Source: Syntrophomonas sp.
Lineage (GTDB): Bacteria > Bacillota > Syntrophomonadia > Syntrophomonadales > Syntrophomonadaceae
Length of the DNA stretch: 35,736 nt
Direction of reading: 5' to 3'
Assembly (NCBI GenBank): GCA_003558625.1
Contig: PWPP01000118.1
Span: 1-35,736 of the forward strand
Position 1 is the stretch's first letter. Each line of letters begins with the position of its first letter. A program made the position numbers and the translations under genes. Below, piece by piece: positions 22,655 through 35,736 of the stretch. The notes beneath the pieces were generated by a model. It worked only from the letters and a program-made list of their open reading frames with translations. It made no database searches and was not told the origin of the DNA.

Positions 22655-23140
22655 ATGGTATTCAAGAACCCAAAGGTTATATTTTTGCGGGAAGGGGTTG
22701 AAGTTTTGGCCCGGTTAAGGATTAAAGTTCGATTGGATTATATGAGCCATGGCAAGACGGGAAAGTTTGGTTTTGGGGGTAAACATGTTGAACAGGCAGC
22801 TGATGAGATCAGACAGCAAAAAGTCACCATGCTTCGAAATGTGCCTTTACAGGCTATACATATTGAGGATATAGATATGAGCCAGGAGATCTATACCGTT
22901 TTTGATGACATAAAAAACAAGCCCGTTGCATATGCACCGGTCATGATAACGTTTCTATCCGATAGCATTGAAGAGACGTTGAAATTTTTTATGCAGGAAG
23001 AGTTTAGGACGGTAGAAATCCTGGAGCCGGAGGAATTTACCTTAAAAAAAGTAGAAATGGAGAAGCTGTTTTTTAAGATTGGCGAAGAGCTGAAAAATTA
23101 TAAAGAATATCTTGAGAAAAAAAACGAGAACTGGAAATAG
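22655..23140 (+). CDS. Hypothetical protein, 161 aa
   Basis: Open frame with plausible composition, followed by a terminator; no family recognised. Confidence 0.6.
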   Translation: MVFKNPKVIFLREGVEVLARLRIKVRLDYMSHGKTGKFGFGGKHVEQAADEIRQQKVTMLRNVPLQAIHIEDIDMSQEIYTVFDDIKNKPVAYAPVMITFLSDSIEETLKFFMQEEFRTVEILEPEEFTLKKVEMEKLFFKIGEELKNYKEYLEKKNENWK

Positions 23141-23385: not shown

Positions 23386-24045
23386 TTGGGTAAAATTACA
23401 ATATTTTCTGGTGGTTTTGGCAGTGGCAAATCGGAAATAGCTCTAAATTATGCATTAGCAAAGCATACTCATGATCATCAGGTAATTTTAGCTGATTTGG
23501 ATTTTGTTAACCCTTTTTTTGTATCCCGGGATCTTAAAGACAGCCTGTTGCAAAAGGGGATAAAACTTCTATCACCAGAAGGTGATCTTTTTTTTGGCGA
23601 TGTTCCTCAGATCCCCCCCCACATGATTTCCTATTTAAAACAGGATATGAACATGGTCCTTGATATTGCCGGTGATGAAGTGGGCGCTTTAGTTTTAGGC
23701 TATCTAAGCCAGGATGTAAAGAACCGGGATTATGAATTCCTGCTGGTTTTAAATCCCTACAGGCCCTTTGCCCGGGAACTAAACGATGTTCTAAACCTAA
23801 AAAACAAGCTGGAAAAAGCCAGCCGGCTTCATTTTACGGGTATAGTCAGCAATCCCAATTTGGTTGAGGAAACCACGGAAGAAATTATTGCAAAGGGGCA
23901 CCGGAGAGTGGTGGATTACGCCACTGCTTTGGATTTACCCCTGCGTTTTTTAACGGTAGAAGAAAAGTTTTTCGCAGCATTCTCCCCCGAATATAAAAGC
24001 ATATTAAAAAAAATCACGTTATATTTGCGGCCTCATTGGCTTTAG
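23386..24045 (+). CDS. P-loop nucleotide-binding protein linked to the 2-oxoacid:ferredoxin oxidoreductase operon (TTG start)
   Basis: Walker A-like GGFGSGKSEIALNYA, VILADLDFVNPFFVSRDL, LDIAGDEVGALVLG (SIMIBI-like). Confidence 0.75.
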   Translation: MGKITIFSGGFGSGKSEIALNYALAKHTHDHQVILADLDFVNPFFVSRDLKDSLLQKGIKLLSPEGDLFFGDVPQIPPHMISYLKQDMNMVLDIAGDEVGALVLGYLSQDVKNRDYEFLLVLNPYRPFARELNDVLNLKNKLEKASRLHFTGIVSNPNLVEETTEEIIAKGHRRVVDYATALDLPLRFLTVEEKFFAAFSPEYKSILKKITLYLRPHWL

Positions 24046-27615: not shown

Positions 27616-27778
27616 ATTCTCATTTGAAGGCAGAACCATTCCTAAAACAATGATGTCAACAAAGAAAAAGTGAATAGAAACATGAAGCTGCGAATTTGCC
27701 CTCCAGTTACCAGGTTATGGTTTTCAATGACCAATATGTAGTAAAATGAATAAAAAAGCAGAAGGCGGTAAGAAAAAC

Positions 27779-28195
27779 ATGGAAGTGGGGAGCAAATTAG
27801 TAGCGACGGCTGCCATCCAGGTAGCCCTGACTACAAGCAGGCAGGAAGAAAATCAACTCAAGAAAGATAAATATGATAAGTATAAAATAAAAGTCGTAGC
27901 TGTAGACTATGGCGGGGAATTTATTAATTCCGTTGCTAAAATTGTAGAGCGGGCGGTGGTGGCTTCAAAAAGAGAGGGTGTTATTAAAGATACACATTCT
28001 GATGAAGGAGCCGTGGCTGGAGCAGCCAGGGAAGCTGTTACCCAAATAATGCCAAAAGCATTAGGTTTGAATGTAGGCGGAAAAATTGGGATTGCCCGTT
28101 ATAAGGATCATATCAGTGTAGCTATTTTTATGGGAATAGGCCTGCTGCATTTAGATGAGGTAGCAATCGGACTGGGGCATCGGGCGGTAACTTAA
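27779..28195 (+). CDS. HutP-family protein (open frame extends to 27746)
   Basis: ASKREGVIKDTHSDEGAVAGAAREAVTQI...KDHISVAIFMGIGLLHLDEVAIGLGHRAV resembles the HutP fold. Confidence 0.72.
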   Translation: MEVGSKLVATAAIQVALTTSRQEENQLKKDKYDKYKIKVVAVDYGGEFINSVAKIVERAVVASKREGVIKDTHSDEGAVAGAAREAVTQIMPKALGLNVGGKIGIARYKDHISVAIFMGIGLLHLDEVAIGLGHRAVT

Positions 28196-28228
28196 GCAAA
28201 ATGCTACAAAGAAAGGCTGGATTGCAGG

Positions 28229-28597
28229 ATGGTAGTTAGGGGAATTAGAGGAGCCACAACGGTAGTTGAAGATAAAGCCGATGAAGTTTTGATCGCAACC
28301 CGTGAATTGTTGTTGGCAATGCAAAAAGAGAATAATTTTGCCCGGCAAGATATTGCCAGCATACTCTTTACCGTAACCAAGGACATAAGGTCGGTATTTC
28401 CGGCGGAAGCTGCCCGTGCTATGGGATGGGACCTGGTGCCTTTACTATGTTTTCAGGAAATAGAAGTGCCGGGCGCCCTGCCCCTTTGTATTCGGGTGAT
28501 GTTGCATGTAAATACGGACAAGTCTCAGGAAGAGATTACGCATATTTATTTAAAAAAGGCCCAGGCTTTACGACAGGACTTAATCCATAAGAAGTGA
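28229..28597 (+). CDS. aroH: Chorismate mutase, AroH class
   Basis: VRGIRGATTVVEDKADEVLIATRELLLAMQKEN, SILFTVTKDIRSVFPAEAARAMGWDLVPLLCFQEIEVPGALPLCIRVMLHVNT. Confidence 0.95.
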   Translation: MVVRGIRGATTVVEDKADEVLIATRELLLAMQKENNFARQDIASILFTVTKDIRSVFPAEAARAMGWDLVPLLCFQEIEVPGALPLCIRVMLHVNTDKSQEEITHIYLKKAQALRQDLIHKK

Positions 28598-28606
28598 TAG
28601 GATTTT

Positions 28607-29020
28607 CTACTCTCCCATTATTTTTATAACCAGCCGTTTTCTCCTGCGTCCGTCAAATTCGGCATAAAATATTTCCTGCCAGGGACCCAGATCTAAATCC
28701 CCGTTGGTAACAGGGATCACAACCTGGTGGTGGACCAAGATGTTTTTTAAATGGGCATCCCCGTTATCTTCTCCGGTTTGATGATGTTTGTATTCTGCTC
28801 CCAGGGGAGCCAACCTCTCCAACAGCTGGTCTAGATCCGACATAAAGCCTGATTCATGATCATTTACAAATACTCCTGCTGTAATATGCATGGCGCTGAC
28901 CAGAACCATACCATCCCGGATTTTAGTCTTATGCAATTCGGTTCTCACTTGATCGGTAATACGAATATATTCCCGTCTCTTGGTGGTGTTAAACCACAGG
29001 TATTCCGTGTGAAACTTCAT
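28607..29020 (-). CDS. YjbQ/UPF0047 family (secondary thiamine-phosphate synthase-like)
   Basis: [36 protein letters not shown]...[50 protein letters not shown]. Confidence 0.92.
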
Positions 29021-29892
29021 TTTAATCCCTCCTGGCAGCTGATTTGATATAAATCTGTTCTTCTGTGTTTCAGCAGGGGGAGTTCCTGCCGAATTTTTTC
29101 CAAATAACCCAAATCGATTTCGGTTTCTATCAGGGCTTCACTTTCCCCGGCTTCAGCCAGAATTCTACCCCAGGGATCTATAACCAGAGAATGTCCCCAG
29201 GCCTGGTAACTGGCTTCGGTGTTTCTGGCGGCTGATGCTGCCATGATATAACACTGGTTGTCTACTGCCCGGCAGCGCATCAAAAGTTCCCAATGCAAGG
29301 GACCGGTGGTAAGATTAAAAGAAGCAGGGATTATTAACACCTGGGCGCCCTTTAAGGTTGCCAAACGGATAAGCTCAGGAAATCGGATATCATAACAGAT
29401 CACGGTGGCCAGGGAAACACCTGCCAGGGTAAAAACATTTATCTGGTTACCGGCGCTTAATGTATCTGACTCTTTGAAGGTAATTTGACCGGGAATATCG
29501 ATATCGAAGAGATGAATTTTCCGGTAATGATTGATCAGCTGACCCTTATTATTAAAGGTGTAGCTGGTGTTATAAATATTGCCGGCAGCATCTTTTTCCG
29601 GAATAGAACCGCCCACGATGGCCAGATTTAATTCCCGGGCCATGGCAGCTAAAAATTCAGTGGTTTTACCGGGATAGGGCTCTGCATAATCCGGGAAATG
29701 TCTGGCCTCATAAGGACAATTAAACATTTCCGGCAGTATGGCCAGTGAGGCCTTCCGGGATGCCGCTTCCTGCAGCATCTCTTGCGCCCGGGTGAGATTT
29801 GTATCCTTTTTAGCCCCTACCTTCATCTGACATAATACTATTTTTAGGGGATGCATGATTGGTGCCAACTCCTTTACCTTTTTTTTGATCAA
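29017..29892 (-). CDS. Carbon-nitrogen hydrolase (nitrilase superfamily, Nit2/omega-amidase-like); start may be 29856
   Basis: Catalytic triad context: LPEMFNCPY (E), [11 protein letters not shown] (K), [13 protein letters not shown] (C). 4-nt overlap with yjbQ. Confidence 0.93.
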
Positions 29893-30095
29893 AAAAATCA
29901 GAGAGTAGATGTGAAATGATTATGTAAAATATAACACAAAAAAAGCAACGGGGCACATGGCCGGATTTTTTTAAAATATGTCATAATACGTTTATGCACA
30001 GTGACAGAAAGATGCCATAGCAGTCAGCTTTTGGTCAGGCTTTAAGCATAGTCAAGCTGAAGATACAAGTGACGGGATTTTTTCTGCTTCACGAA

Positions 30096-30540
30096 GATGT
30101 TCTGCAGGCAGGCAGCAGGAATATGCAGAATTATCCACTGCTGGAAGCGTTGGAAAAACAGGACAAGCCGGTTCTTCTTAAAAGAGGACTCAGCGACTAT
30201 AGAAGAATGGCTGCTGGCTGCTGAATATATCATGTATGGAGGCAGCAAAAAGATTATCTTGTGCGAGAGGGGTATCAGGACCTTTGAACCCTATACCCGG
30301 GATACATTTGACATCAGCGCGATACCGCTTATCAAGGAGTTATCCCACCTGCCTGTGATCGCAGACACCAGCTATGCCACCGGAAAATCACCATTGGTCC
30401 CTCCGGTGGCCCGGGCTGCCATAGCTGCAGGAGCAGATGGTCTCATAGTAAAAGTACATCCGAATCCTTCCCGGGCCCTTTCGGATGGCCCGCAATCATT
30501 AACCCCGGACAGATTTTACCGGTTGTACCGTGAGATTTAG
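30096..30540 (+). pseudogene. Decayed 3-deoxy-7-phosphoheptulonate synthase (aroF-like), N-terminal half missing, frameshifted
   Basis: [33 protein letters not shown] in the 30096 frame; frame break at about 30195; then [39 protein letters not shown]...ALSDGPQSL in the 30097 frame. Parallels the intact aroF at 34731. Confidence 0.85.
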
Positions 30541-30619: not shown

Positions 30620-30964
30620 TTATTCCTGTGGCAATGCACATAACAAGTGGGCGATCCCTACCACTTTATCTATACCGATAACGAAACAAATACCGGTAGC
30701 CGGTTTATTCATGTCGCATTGATTGACGATGCTGTCTATAACCAGATCGGTTATTTCTTTGGGCACAATGGTCAACACGATTTCCTTTTCCGGTTCTATG
30801 GCGATACCCAATAGTTTTTTCTGTTCATGGATGCCTGTTCCCCGGCCATGAAGGATGGTTGCACCCTCAGCTCCGGCTTTTTTGGTCGTTTTTACAATCT
30901 TATCCGCCCATCCTTTCTTAACCACGGTAATAATCAGATCATGCGAATCCTTTAGGACCATCAT
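30620..30964 (-). CDS. PII-like (P-II family nitrogen regulator-like) signalling protein
   Basis: LIITVVKKGWADKIVKTTKKAGAEGATILHGRGTG ... PATGICFVIGIDKVVGI; 4-nt overlap with the upstream DUF1538 gene. Confidence 0.85.
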   Translation of the reverse strand: MMVLKDSHDLIITVVKKGWADKIVKTTKKAGAEGATILHGRGTGIHEQKKLLGIAIEPEKEIVLTIVPKEITDLVIDSIVNQCDMNKPATGICFVIGIDKVVGIAHLLCALPQE

Positions 30965-31692
30965 TGATCCTCCTCCTTTTCACGGTATAGTAAACCCAAT
31001 GCCATTACTGAAAGAATCGGGGCCAGGGCTACCAGGGCCACCAGTCCGAACCCGTCTATAACAGCATCTCGCTCCTCCATTACTGTGGCCACGCCTATAG
31101 CCACAGCCATAATAAAAGTAACGGTCATAGGTCCAGTTGCTACGGCCCCTGAATCAAACGCAATGGCAATAAATGCGGTATCGGAAAATTTAAGCATGAT
31201 CAAAGCCAAAATATATCCCGGAATAATAATATATTGCAGGGGAATCCCATATATGATTTTTGCCATGGCTAAAGCGGTAAATGCTGCTACACCAAGAGCC
31301 AGGGTCATTAACATGATTTTATCTTTGACATACCCGCTGGATACTTCTTCTACCTGGGAGCAAAGAATGCGGACAGCGGGTTCAGCCAGGGTGGCCACCA
31401 GGCCCAGAACAAAGCCGATGGGGATCAGGATCCACTTATTGGGTAGACTGCCCAGGTTTTCTCCCAGGGCTGTACCTACCGGGAAAAAGCCTATATATAC
31501 TCCCTGCAGAAACAGGGCCAGGCCTATAAATGTCATGACGATGCCGACTAATAACTTCTTCACATAAGTCCATTCAAATTTTAGAAAGAATACCTGGAAA
31601 AAGAAAAAAAACAGCAATAGGGGGGTTAAAGCCACCAGCACCTCCAGCAGGACATGTTCAAATCCTTGGAAAATCACCAGTTTATTATTCAA
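30961..31692 (-). CDS. DUF1538-family membrane protein (second of pair)
   Basis: ATLAEPAVRILCSQVEEVSSGYV, IAFDSGAVATGPMTVTFIMAVAIG; multi-TM. Confidence 0.88.
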   Translation of the reverse strand: MNNKLVIFQGFEHVLLEVLVALTPLLLFFFFFQVFFLKFEWTYVKKLLVGIVMTFIGLALFLQGVYIGFFPVGTALGENLGSLPNKWILIPIGFVLGLVATLAEPAVRILCSQVEEVSSGYVKDKIMLMTLALGVAAFTALAMAKIIYGIPLQYIIIPGYILALIMLKFSDTAFIAIAFDSGAVATGPMTVTFIMAVAIGVATVMEERDAVIDGFGLVALVALAPILSVMALGLLYREKEEDQ

Positions 31693-32384
31693 GCAAAAAT
31701 CACCCCTAAAAGAAGTACTGCCAGGACCGGACCGATGGAGGCCAGGCCAATAAGACCAAAGCTATTGGATAAATTTGATTTTCCGGAAAGCACCGAAGTT
31801 AAACCAATACCCAATGCCAAAATAAAAGGTACGGTCATAGGTCCGGTAGTTACTCCCCCGGCATCAAAAGCCACCGGAACAAACTGGGGAGGAGTAAAGA
31901 AAGATAGGACCATAATGGCCGAATATCCCGCAATTAAAATATAAGCCATAGGAATTCCCAGGATAATCCTCAACATGGCCAAAGCCACAAAAATAGCTAT
32001 ACCTAATGCTACTACGGAAACAAGGAGATTTCGACCGATATATCCTTCAGAAACCATGTCTACCTGAAAGGCCAGAACCCGGACATCGGGTTCTGCAACC
32101 GTAACCGCAAAGCCCAAAACGAAGGCAACACTCACGACCACCAGGGCGGAACCCCAGTTGGGCAATTGAGAACCGATTGCTTCCCCCATAGGCAGGAGGC
32201 CGATTCTGATGCCATACAAAAAAAGAGCCAAACCCAGCATGATAAAACCTGCTCCTATTAAGAGCTGAAATAAGGATTTTAAGGGCATACTTAACAAGGC
32301 AAACTGTAAAACCAATACGGTTACAGTGACGGGGAGAATGGCCTGAACCACCTCGGACAGGATGTCTTTAAATTCTCTTAACAT
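31689..32384 (-). CDS. DUF1538-family membrane protein (first of pair; open frame extends to 32456)
   Basis: VTVAEPDVRVLAFQVDMVSEGYIG, VAFDAGGVTTGPMTVPFILALGIG; SD ggaggg upstream of ATG 32384. Confidence 0.88.
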   Translation of the reverse strand: MLREFKDILSEVVQAILPVTVTVLVLQFALLSMPLKSLFQLLIGAGFIMLGLALFLYGIRIGLLPMGEAIGSQLPNWGSALVVVSVAFVLGFAVTVAEPDVRVLAFQVDMVSEGYIGRNLLVSVVALGIAIFVALAMLRIILGIPMAYILIAGYSAIMVLSFFTPPQFVPVAFDAGGVTTGPMTVPFILALGIGLTSVLSGKSNLSNSFGLIGLASIGPVLAVLLLGVIFA

Positions 32385-32522
32385 ATTCGTGCCACCCTCC
32401 AGGAGAACGGTTATAAATAAAAAGACAGCATAAATGCAAGCTCTTAGGGTCATCATAGCATATAAAAGAGTGCAATTGGGTTATAATAAATGAGGTAAAC
32501 CATTCATGAGAAAGGTACTATT

Positions 32523-34499
32523 ATGGACATGGATTTTTCATTACTGAATGATATCGTTACCATCTTTGCCCTGGCAGTGGTGGTAGTTTATATTTGCCAC
32601 CGCATCAAACTTCCCTCCATCGTTGGATTTTTGCTAACAGGGATTATCGCCGGACCCCATGGAATAGGGGTTATCGATACCATTCACCAGGTGGAGTTAT
32701 TGGCAGAGATCGGGATTATCTTCTTATTATTCAGCATCGGCATCGAGTTTTCTTTTAAAAACCTGATGAGCATTAAAAAATCGGTGGTCATGGGGGGCAG
32801 CATACAGGTTGGATTGTCCGTTCTAATGGCTTTTTTAATTGCTCGGGGCCTGGGATTGCCCTTTAACCAGGCACTATTTCTTGGCTTCATGGTTTCATTG
32901 AGCAGTACCGCCATCGTATTGAAGCAGCTGGGAGAGCGGTCAGAATTGGCTACCCCCCATGGTAAAATGAAGGTGGGTATCCTTATATACCAGGATATTA
33001 TTGTCGTCCCCATGATGCTCCTTGCTCCAATTCTGGCTGCCTCCTCTGTTACCCCGGAGCCCCTGGGGGGGATGTTTTTAAAAGGAATCGGGGTCATGCT
33101 TTTATTGCTGTTTATGGGAGTATATATATTACCCCGTGTCCTCTACCGGATCGCCTGTACCCAGAGCCGGGAACTGTTTTTACTTAGTATTATTGTAATT
33201 TGTTTTGCTACCGCCTGGTTAACCAACAGCATTGGGTTATCTTTGGCATTGGGTGCTTTTCTGGCAGGCTTGATTATATCTGAATCAGAATACAGCCAAC
33301 AGGCTTTATCCAATATTTTGCCCTTTATTGATACCTTTACCAGCCTGTTTTTTGTATCCATTGGAATGCTCTTAAATGTCGGTGTGGTCTTGGAGCATGC
33401 TGGAACTGTGCTGGTCATGGTAGTTGCCCTGTTGGTGGGAAAAGCCATTATTGCCGCCCTGGCGGGAATACTTATGGGCTATCCTCTGCGGACAGCAATT
33501 CTAGTCGGATTTGGTCTTTGTCAGGTGGGGGAATTTTCATTTATTCTATCTCAAAGCGGGCTGCAATATAATCTTATTAATTTAGAACTTTACCAGGGTT
33601 TTTTAGCAGCGGCCATATTTACCATGATGTTAACCCCGTTTTTAATGAATATAGCCCCGAGGGTTGCCTATGCTGTTTCAAAAGCAAAAATACCTCCCCG
33701 TCTGGCCCAGGGAACAATGCAAACCAATAACGACGGAGAAGGGGCCTTAGATAACGAAGAGCATTTAATTATTGTGGGGTATGGCTTAAATGGGAGAAAT
33801 TTATCCCGGGCAGCAACCGCTGCCAACATCCCCTACATCATTTTGGAAATCAACCCGGATGTGGTGATTGCGGAAAAGATTAAAGGGGAGCCGATTTTTT
33901 TCGGGGATGCCACCCAGGAAATGGTCCTGAAACATGCAGGGATCGGTAACGCCAAAATTATGGTGGTTGCCATCCATGATGCTGTAGCCTGTCGTAGAAT
34001 AACGGCCATCGCGAGGCATCTTAACCCTAGTCTCCACATTATCGTAAGAACCAGGTTTGTGGCTGATATGGAGGACCTGCACCTGATCGGCGCCGATGAA
34101 GTCATACCGGAAGAGTATGAAACCTCGGTAGAAATCTTTTCCCGGGTCCTGGCCCGCTATATGGTTCCCCAGAATGATATCGAGAAATTTATCCATGAAA
34201 TTCGCAGTGCCGACTACGATATGTTTCGCAGTATCAACAAAAAGGATATACAATTTCAGGTCTTGACGCGATATATTGATGAACTGGATTTTAACAGTTA
34301 CAGAATAGATCATAACTCCCCGGTAATCGGAAAAACGATAGCTGAGTTGGACCTGCGCAATATATATGGGATCACCGTCGTAGCTATCAGGCGTAAAGGC
34401 CAAGTCATTTTAAACCCCGGTGGGGAAGAAATTCTGATGGACGGGGATTATCTGGTTCTTTTAGGTGGATCCTGTGACATAAAAAGTGCTTTGCAATAA
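32523..34499 (+). CDS. CPA2-family cation:proton antiporter (Kef type) with TrkA-N and TrkA-C domains
   Basis: LLTGIIAGPHGIGVI, FLLFSIGIEFSF, LSSTAIVLKQLGER, LSLALGAFLAGLIISES; RCK domain HLIIVGYGLNGRNLSRAATAANIPYIILEINPDVV; C-terminal TrkA-C. Confidence 0.94.
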   Translation: MDMDFSLLNDIVTIFALAVVVVYICHRIKLPSIVGFLLTGIIAGPHGIGVIDTIHQVELLAEIGIIFLLFSIGIEFSFKNLMSIKKSVVMGGSIQVGLSVLMAFLIARGLGLPFNQALFLGFMVSLSSTAIVLKQLGERSELATPHGKMKVGILIYQDIIVVPMMLLAPILAASSVTPEPLGGMFLKGIGVMLLLLFMGVYILPRVLYRIACTQSRELFLLSIIVICFATAWLTNSIGLSLALGAFLAGLIISESEYSQQALSNILPFIDTFTSLFFVSIGMLLNVGVVLEHAGTVLVMVVALLVGKAIIAALAGILMGYPLRTAILVGFGLCQVGEFSFILSQSGLQYNLINLELYQGFLAAAIFTMMLTPFLMNIAPRVAYAVSKAKIPPRLAQGTMQTNNDGEGALDNEEHLIIVGYGLNGRNLSRAATAANIPYIILEINPDVVIAEKIKGEPIFFGDATQEMVLKHAGIGNAKIMVVAIHDAVACRRITAIARHLNPSLHIIVRTRFVADMEDLHLIGADEVIPEEYETSVEIFSRVLARYMVPQNDIEKFIHEIRSADYDMFRSINKKDIQFQVLTRYIDELDFNSYRIDHNSPVIGKTIAELDLRNIYGITVVAIRRKGQVILNPGGEEILMDGDYLVLLGGSCDIKSALQ

Positions 34500-34695: not shown

Positions 34696-34730
34696 AGCTG
34701 TTTCTCACCTCCAGCAAAGGAGGAATGGAC

Positions 34731-35736
34731 ATGATTATTGTAATGAAAAGAAGAGCGGACGAAAAAGAAATCGAAGCGGTCATTCAGAGGTTGAAAGATG
34801 AAGGATTTCAGGCCCATCCTTCCCGGGGAGTAGAAAGAACCATTATTGGAGGTATTGGGGAACGCAATGAATTGGTTATGGAGCTTTTAGCCACCCTGGC
34901 CGGAGTGGAAAAAGTCGTCCCCATTCTAAATCCCTTCAAACTGACATCCCGGGAATTTAAAGACCAACCTACGATCATTAATGTGGGTCAAAAGGCCTTT
35001 GGTGATGGGAGTCTACAGATTATTGCCGGGCCATGTGCCGTGGAAAGCCGGGAAAAATTTTTAGAGATTGCCCGGATCTTAAAGGATTTGGGTGCTGATA
35101 TGCTAAGAGGTGGAGCATTTAAGCCCCGCACTTCACCGTATTCCTTCCAGGGATTAGAAGAAGAAGGCCTGAAAATCCTGGCAGAAGCCAGAGAGATAAC
35201 AGGGTTGCCGATCGTCACTGAAGTTATGGATACCCGCATGGTTAAAATGGTTGCGGATTATGCCGATATATTGCAAGTGGGAGCCAGAAACATGCAAAAT
35301 TTCTTTTTGCTGCGGGAACTGGGGACGATCGATAAGCCCATCCTGCTAAAGCGGGGACCCTCTGCCAGTATTGAAGAATGGATTATGGCAGCAGAATATA
35401 TTATCTCCAGCTGCAACGACCAGGTTATTATGTGTGAGCGGGGGATACGAACATTTGAAAATTACACCAGAAATACCCTGGATTTAAGTGCCGTCCCCAT
35501 TATCAAACAACTGACTCATTTGCCTATTGTCGTGGATCCTAGTCACGGAACAGGAAAAAGCAATCTGGTGATACCTATGTCCCTGGCCGCGGTGGGAGCT
35601 GGCTGTGACGGATTAATTGTTGAGGTGCATCAAAATCCTAGTGAGGCACTATCTGATGGACCCCAGTCTTTAGACCCCCATCAGTTTAAGGAATTTATGC
35701 AGAAGACAACCAATATAAAAGCCAGCTTAAAGGCAG
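34731..35736 (+). CDS. aroF: 3-deoxy-7-phosphoheptulonate synthase, AroF/type I beta (3' truncated by the window)
   Basis: MIIVMKRRADEKEIEAVIQRLKDEGFQAH..., IIAGPCAVESREK, GGAFKPRTSPYSFQGLEEEGLKIL, QVGARNMQNFFLLRELG, DPSHGTGKSNLV; open to the window end. Confidence 0.95.
   Translation, partial: MIIVMKRRADEKEIEAVIQRLKDEGFQAHPSRGVERTIIGGIGERNELVMELLATLAGVEKVVPILNPFKLTSREFKDQPTIINVGQKAFGDGSLQIIAGPCAVESREKFLEIARILKDLGADMLRGGAFKPRTSPYSFQGLEEEGLKILAEAREITGLPIVTEVMDTRMVKMVADYADILQVGARNMQNFFLLRELGTIDKPILLKRGPSASIEEWIMAAEYIISSCNDQVIMCERGIRTFENYTRNTLDLSAVPIIKQLTHLPIVVDPSHGTGKSNLVIPMSLAAVGAGCDGLIVEVHQNPSEALSDGPQSLDPHQFKEFMQKTTNIKASLKA

Follow-up and report, generated by a model that had tools for sequence, protein, structure and literature searches.

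Control of membrane transport by PII proteins is established for AmtB, SbtA, NrtBCD and others, and the roles that canonical residues of GlnB and GlnK play in the binding of ATP and 2-oxoglutarate are well defined. Among the DUF1538 membrane proteins, the closest described system is UmpAB of Halomonas zhaodongensis. UmpA and UmpB, with seven predicted transmembrane segments each and encoded by overlapping genes, form a heterodimer according to co-immunoprecipitation, and expression of A and B alone in E. coli, with no PII protein, gave pH-dependent Na+(Li+,K+)/H+ antiport (PMC5484666). The preliminary description of the locus studied here had referred to DUF1538 pairs as cation/proton antiporters, and this is borne out for UmpAB (PMC5484666). 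The published clone carries a 4.2-kb insert in which umpB is the last ORF listed, and a PII-like third gene was not reported (PMC5484666); a PII gene further downstream, if any, would therefore have been missed. As UmpAB is active without PII, such a protein is not required for basal activity, which fits the role of a gate or tuner. In our literature search, which had subscription journals and preprints outside its scope, no account of a DUF1538-PII trio was found, and the main DUF1538 paper is silent on PII; the one paper that turned up for UmpAB and PII together deals, by its abstract, with a different family of antiporters. The trio is thus not described in the literature found, while PII-regulated transporters and the DUF1538 antiporter are each already known, and existing genome annotation already places DUF1538 and PII gene names side by side.

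Organisation of the locus

The window, by which we mean the whole stretch of 35,736 nucleotides that was analysed, contains two DUF1538 genes and a PII-like gene on the minus strand, with a Kef-type antiporter gene facing away from them (Table 1). The three frames and their two 4-nt overlaps proved to be exactly as the preliminary description had claimed. Both DUF1538 frames match the Pfam family with very low E-values (7e-75 and 9e-73). The open frame of DUF1538-A reaches 32456, which would give a long form of 255 aa, but the likely start is the ATG listed in Table 1, which carries an RBS-like GGAGGG 10 nt upstream and agrees in position with the N-termini of homologues. The Kef gene is divergent and begins 66 nt from the long frame, as had been noted, and 138 nt lie between the two likely ATG codons. 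An exact NTGA overlap at the A-B junction recurs in 60 of 78 split-gene loci and is a conserved trait; at the B-PII junction the overlap is exact in 19 of 89 loci.

Table 1. Features of the DUF1538-PII locus and its divergent neighbour in the window
Feature	Positions	Strand	Description
PII-like gene	30620-30964	-	114 aa, ATG start, single domain; Pfam P-II 36 bits, 9e-9 (cut-off 25)
DUF1538-B, second-position subunit	30961-31692	-	243 aa, TTG start; Pfam DUF1538 251 bits
DUF1538-A, first-position subunit	31689-32384	-	about 231 aa from likely ATG at 32384; Pfam DUF1538 245 bits
TTGA overlap, A stop/B start	31689-31692	-	4 nt, read from the sequence
ATGA overlap, B stop/PII start	30961-30964	-	4 nt, read from the sequence
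Kef/CPA2-type antiporter gene	32523-34499	+	Pfam Na_H_Exchanger, TrkA_N and TrkA_C; neighbour outside the conserved module

Conservation and distribution of the trio

Three hundred genomes of the window's phylum were scanned for DUF1538 and for the PII subtype found in the window. DUF1538 was detected in 101 and the PII subtype in 104 of them, with 100 genomes carrying both; put differently, the subtype is present in 100 of 101 DUF1538-positive genomes compared with 4 of 199 DUF1538-negative ones (Fisher p = 1e-73 over the 300 genomes, a value that ignores their kinship). The sole DUF1538-positive genome without PII (G056) contains only a DUF1538 pseudogene, which is interrupted by six stops (C1:2161174-2161630), and in the four genomes with PII only, the strongest hit is a PII fragment of 49 residues, the other three matches being weak. 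The association extends to gene order: PII lies directly downstream on the same strand in at least 91 of the 95 DUF1538 clusters listed, and the remaining four include contig-edge cases as well as G141, whose PII gene was seen when the locus was read (L018). At the individually named loci, PII was found in 61 of 65; the contig stops at DUF1538-B in three, and only at L087 (5998-6683) is the PII gene missing, where DUF1538-B is frame-broken. In both G056 and L087 the DUF1538 gene has decayed where PII is absent, so that loss of PII goes together with decay of the transporter, consistent with co-decay.

The module is also present in other phyla. DUF1538 was detected in 8 of 198 genomes of Desulfobacterota, the phylum of Desulfurivibrio, with PII at all seven readable loci (the eighth ends at a contig edge), and in 7 of 148 genomes of the phylum of the Balneolales genome, with PII in 7 of 7. 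The same gene order occurs on plasmids of Chelativorans, Methylocystis, Peptoclostridium and Vescimonas, alphaproteobacterial plasmids included. The trio is therefore a real and widely conserved three-gene module, in agreement with the earlier proposal that a PII-like protein joins the two DUF1538 proteins as a third component; the frequency of the PII-DUF1538-DUF1538 neighbourhood, the check suggested at that stage, showed linkage conserved across genomes and phyla.

The hosts are largely Alkalicoccus, Salipaludibacillus, Heliorestis and Desulfurivibrio together with sediment MAGs, a query-biased set since it was retrieved with the window protein as query. Judging by their names we take these genera to be haloalkaliphilic, and the isolate codes of the sediment MAGs presumably denote soda-lake samples. 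Gut Bacillota also carry the DUF1538-PII module, so that it is not confined to haloalkaliphiles.

The DUF1538 subunits and their relation to UmpAB

Phylogenetic analysis separates A and B as distinct paralogues, with 94 first-position and 94 second-position sequences in two clades; the order is never reversed, and the window proteins fall in the clades expected from their positions. In three separate clades of the tree A and B form a single chain, and PII is retained wherever the contig permits. The two halves were fused independently three times, which supports a 1:1 complex of A and B.

Like UmpAB, the window encodes two homologous DUF1538 membrane proteins in adjacent, overlapping genes. 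The window pair nevertheless scores well below the cut-offs of the UmpAB models NCBIfam NF041627/NF041628 (116-129 bits for UmpA and 107-121 bits for UmpB, against 490 and 500), and it belongs to a 188-sequence clade apart from a 12-sequence UmpAB-like clade (support 0.999, in a tree built without the Halomonas sequence). The earlier assignment to the UmpAB type therefore holds for the paired DUF1538 architecture but not for orthology to UmpA and UmpB. The UmpAB-like clade (clade II) has the AEP and Asp-Gly-Gly motifs in common with the window clade, whereas the second motif reads YDxGGVTTSTVTV in UmpAB-like pairs and FDxGGVxTGPMTV in the window clade. Clade-II pairs from Desulfobacterota, which score 332-360 bits against the UmpA model, are accompanied by PII; a search of viral contigs for clade-II UmpA relatives found none.

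Of the membrane subunits, structure prediction covered DUF1538-B; for a fused pair, single subunits seemed in the alignment to fall on one half. The AlphaFold2 model of DUF1538-B (pLDDT 92) has no fold match in the PDB at E <= 0.001, and a comparison with PDB sequences gave no credible relative (best E 0.8). The model shows two helix breaks, one at the invariant AEP motif (residues 100-102) and the other at the second invariant motif, the stretch that follows Asp177 and its Gly-Gly. Broken helices bearing acidic residues are typical of the ion-binding sites of some antiporters. In some Syntrophomonadaceae MAGs DUF1538-B has a C-terminal extension, for which we had considered a fused PII domain; this was rejected, as the extension is an acidic low-complexity tail of about 60-90 residues. 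The tail was seen at L037, L039, L040, L057 and L061, which belong to Syntrophomonadaceae and other Bacillota MAGs, and the window protein is without it.

Given the changed motif and the separate clade, the substrate may differ from that of UmpAB. The trio might then be a regulated transporter of an anion, bicarbonate or an organic ion, gated by the PII-like protein in a role closer to that of SbtB towards SbtA. The single DUF1538 pair characterised so far is a distant one, and the DUF1538-B fold has no counterpart among the known antiporters of the PDB, both of which leave room for such a substrate. On the other hand, the AEP and Asp motifs are invariant and common to UmpAB-like proteins, many hosts in the query-biased set are haloalkaliphiles, and in a published model DUF1538 ranks within the 20 Pfam families that tell most about growth pH (PMC13255231). 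We therefore regard another substrate as rather unlikely and favour cation/proton exchange, to which the clade difference and the occurrence of the module in gut Bacillota are nonetheless objections.

The PII-like protein

The AlphaFold2 model of the PII-like protein (pLDDT 84) finds its best PDB matches in archaeal GlnK1 (2j9c, 2j9d and 2j9e; TM up to 0.78, Foldseek E 1e-7), and the P-II profile together with the ferredoxin-like fold of the model assigns the product to the PII superfamily. Its residues were compared by alignment with the canonical PII of the same genome (gene at G000 C113). The T-loop is five residues shorter and is devoid of the tyrosine pair, Ile or Leu replaces the GDGK lysine, and GIxH replaces RIR, the C-loop arginine pair, while the LLEK lysine is retained. 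As the canonical nucleotide and 2-oxoglutarate residues are not conserved, gating in the canonical ATP/ADP mode is unlikely; gating by another small ligand, also suggested in the preliminary description, is the reading we prefer. Family-wide conservation of the PII-like protein sits instead in GRGTGIHE, EPEKE and GIxH, motifs whose positions correspond to the inter-subunit cleft of canonical PII and which thus point to a ligand site that is probably kept but altered. Cyclic di-AMP was considered as a ligand through the presence of a DAC domain, which was found in 24 of 24 genomes tested yet also in 11 of 14 controls, and is hence uninformative.

Beside DUF1538 genes, PII occurs as a single gene (as in the window), as two genes, as a two-domain protein and as a three-domain protein. 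In two-PII operons the first copy is less conserved, and most single PIIs, that of the window included, group in the tree with the second copy (support 0.955). The three-domain chains (L139, L140 and L168; three genomes of two phyla) are about 370-381 aa long. Three PII domains in a row are what a covalently joined PII trimer would look like, and these chains may represent single-chain pseudo-trimers. At L139 and L140, both from Desulfobacterota, and at L162/L168 of the phylum of the Balneolales genome, three consecutive PII-like domains adjoin DUF1538-DUF1538 fusions of 626-713 aa, longer than is usual.

These data also bear on another possibility, in which the DUF1538 complex depends on the PII-like protein for its structure or assembly and this protein has no sensing function. 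The near-perfect linkage and co-decay, the lost canonical ligand residues and the less conserved first copy in two-PII operons would all suit such a subunit; yet UmpAB is active without PII (PMC5484666), and conservation of GRGTGIHE, EPEKE and GIxH in the cleft suggests that a ligand site was kept. A purely structural role is accordingly improbable in our view, and we prefer a regulatory one, although the PII-free activity of UmpAB in E. coli weighs against a dedicated gating subunit too.

Comparison with other PII systems is consistent with a regulator. As in GlnK-AmtB, a PII-fold protein is genetically linked to a single membrane transporter, but the window protein departs from GlnK in the shorter T-loop and in the absent modifiable tyrosine, GDGK lysine and C-loop arginine pair, and its partner is not an ammonium channel. 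SbtB, dedicated to the sodium/bicarbonate symporter SbtA, is likewise a non-canonical PII-like protein serving an ion-coupled transporter; unlike in that system, no solved transporter is a significant match for the DUF1538 fold, and no R-loop is seen in the window protein. PstA and PotN are also non-canonical, and PotN is a fold match (7o4x), but their genomic partner differs from that of the window. We take PotN to be linked to a transporter as well; to our knowledge, the sequence motifs of PstA and PotN are not common to the window protein.

The Kef-type neighbour and flanking genes

The product of the divergent gene scores 312 bits against the KefC equivalog (cut-off 752) and is predicted to be a Kef-like CPA2 protein with RCK domains rather than KefC proper. 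The layout, with a short gap between the likely starts, had led to the proposal that the two units share a regulatory region, and the DUF1538 pair, the PII-like gene and the Kef-type antiporter might on these grounds constitute one co-regulated ion-homeostasis locus. Three Salipaludibacillus loci do have a CPA2-type gene close to the module; however, among 78 loci with neighbours these and the window are the only ones with a PF00999-type exchanger nearby, and the Salipaludibacillus genes stand in another arrangement. A fourth clustered locus (L154) encodes a TrkA-domain potassium channel, not an exchanger. In the two same-family genomes examined the module is present without a Kef neighbour, flanked by GerAC and MgtE in one and by Usp and CarD in the other. 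Promoter-like matches in the region number 10, no more than the 10.6 expected by chance. Shared regulation was consequently rejected, and we consider a single co-regulated locus highly improbable.

UvrD, EF-G, ChlI, RecG and PGM were dismissed as functional partners, being lineage-specific housekeeping neighbours with no common theme. A truncated, frame-shifted remnant of DAHP synthase (30070-30540, plus strand) flanks the module as a decayed paralogue and has 60% amino acid identity to the intact copy at 34725-35735. The idea that this aroF fragment is a scar of module insertion found no support, as DNA similarity to the intact aroF is absent. Further away, 27746-29892 encodes a HutP-like protein and an AroH-type chorismate mutase, followed on the minus strand by YjbQ-family and nitrilase-family genes with a 4-nt overlap. 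Two plus-strand frames without Pfam match, of 161 aa (22655-23140) and 219 aa (23386-24045), sit between a pseudouridine synthase and a 2-oxoacid:ferredoxin oxidoreductase operon.

Proposed mechanism and significance

We consider it probable that the three genes encode one machine, a cation/H+ antiporter resembling UmpAB whose gate is a dedicated PII-like subunit in which the ligand site is altered. DUF1538-A and DUF1538-B would form a heteromeric membrane transporter that most likely exchanges a monovalent cation for H+, as UmpAB does. The PII-like protein would be its dedicated cytoplasmic regulatory subunit, assembled as a PII-type trimer that binds a small ligand in the rewired inter-subunit cleft. 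It may dock on and leave the cytoplasmic face of A/B and thereby set antiport activity, in the manner of GlnK-AmtB and SbtB-SbtA. For the window, we infer antiport, docking, gating and ligand binding. More tentatively, and with some doubt, this could be extended to all intact DUF1538 antiporters, the UmpAB type included: each would comprise three components, with a transporter fold that has no solved relative and a PII-like subunit that senses a non-canonical ligand (not ATP or 2-oxoglutarate) and gates cation/proton exchange.

Because the predicted DUF1538 fold matches no solved structure, an experimental structure would be new. If our reading is true, the assays on UmpAB, the only DUF1538 antiporter whose function has been studied, were done in the absence of its regulator, and PII-transporter control would gain a new partner class, in which the natural three-domain PII chains would make trimer symmetry and stoichiometry testable. 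A widespread antiporter family would then have a built-in metabolic or ionic sensor.
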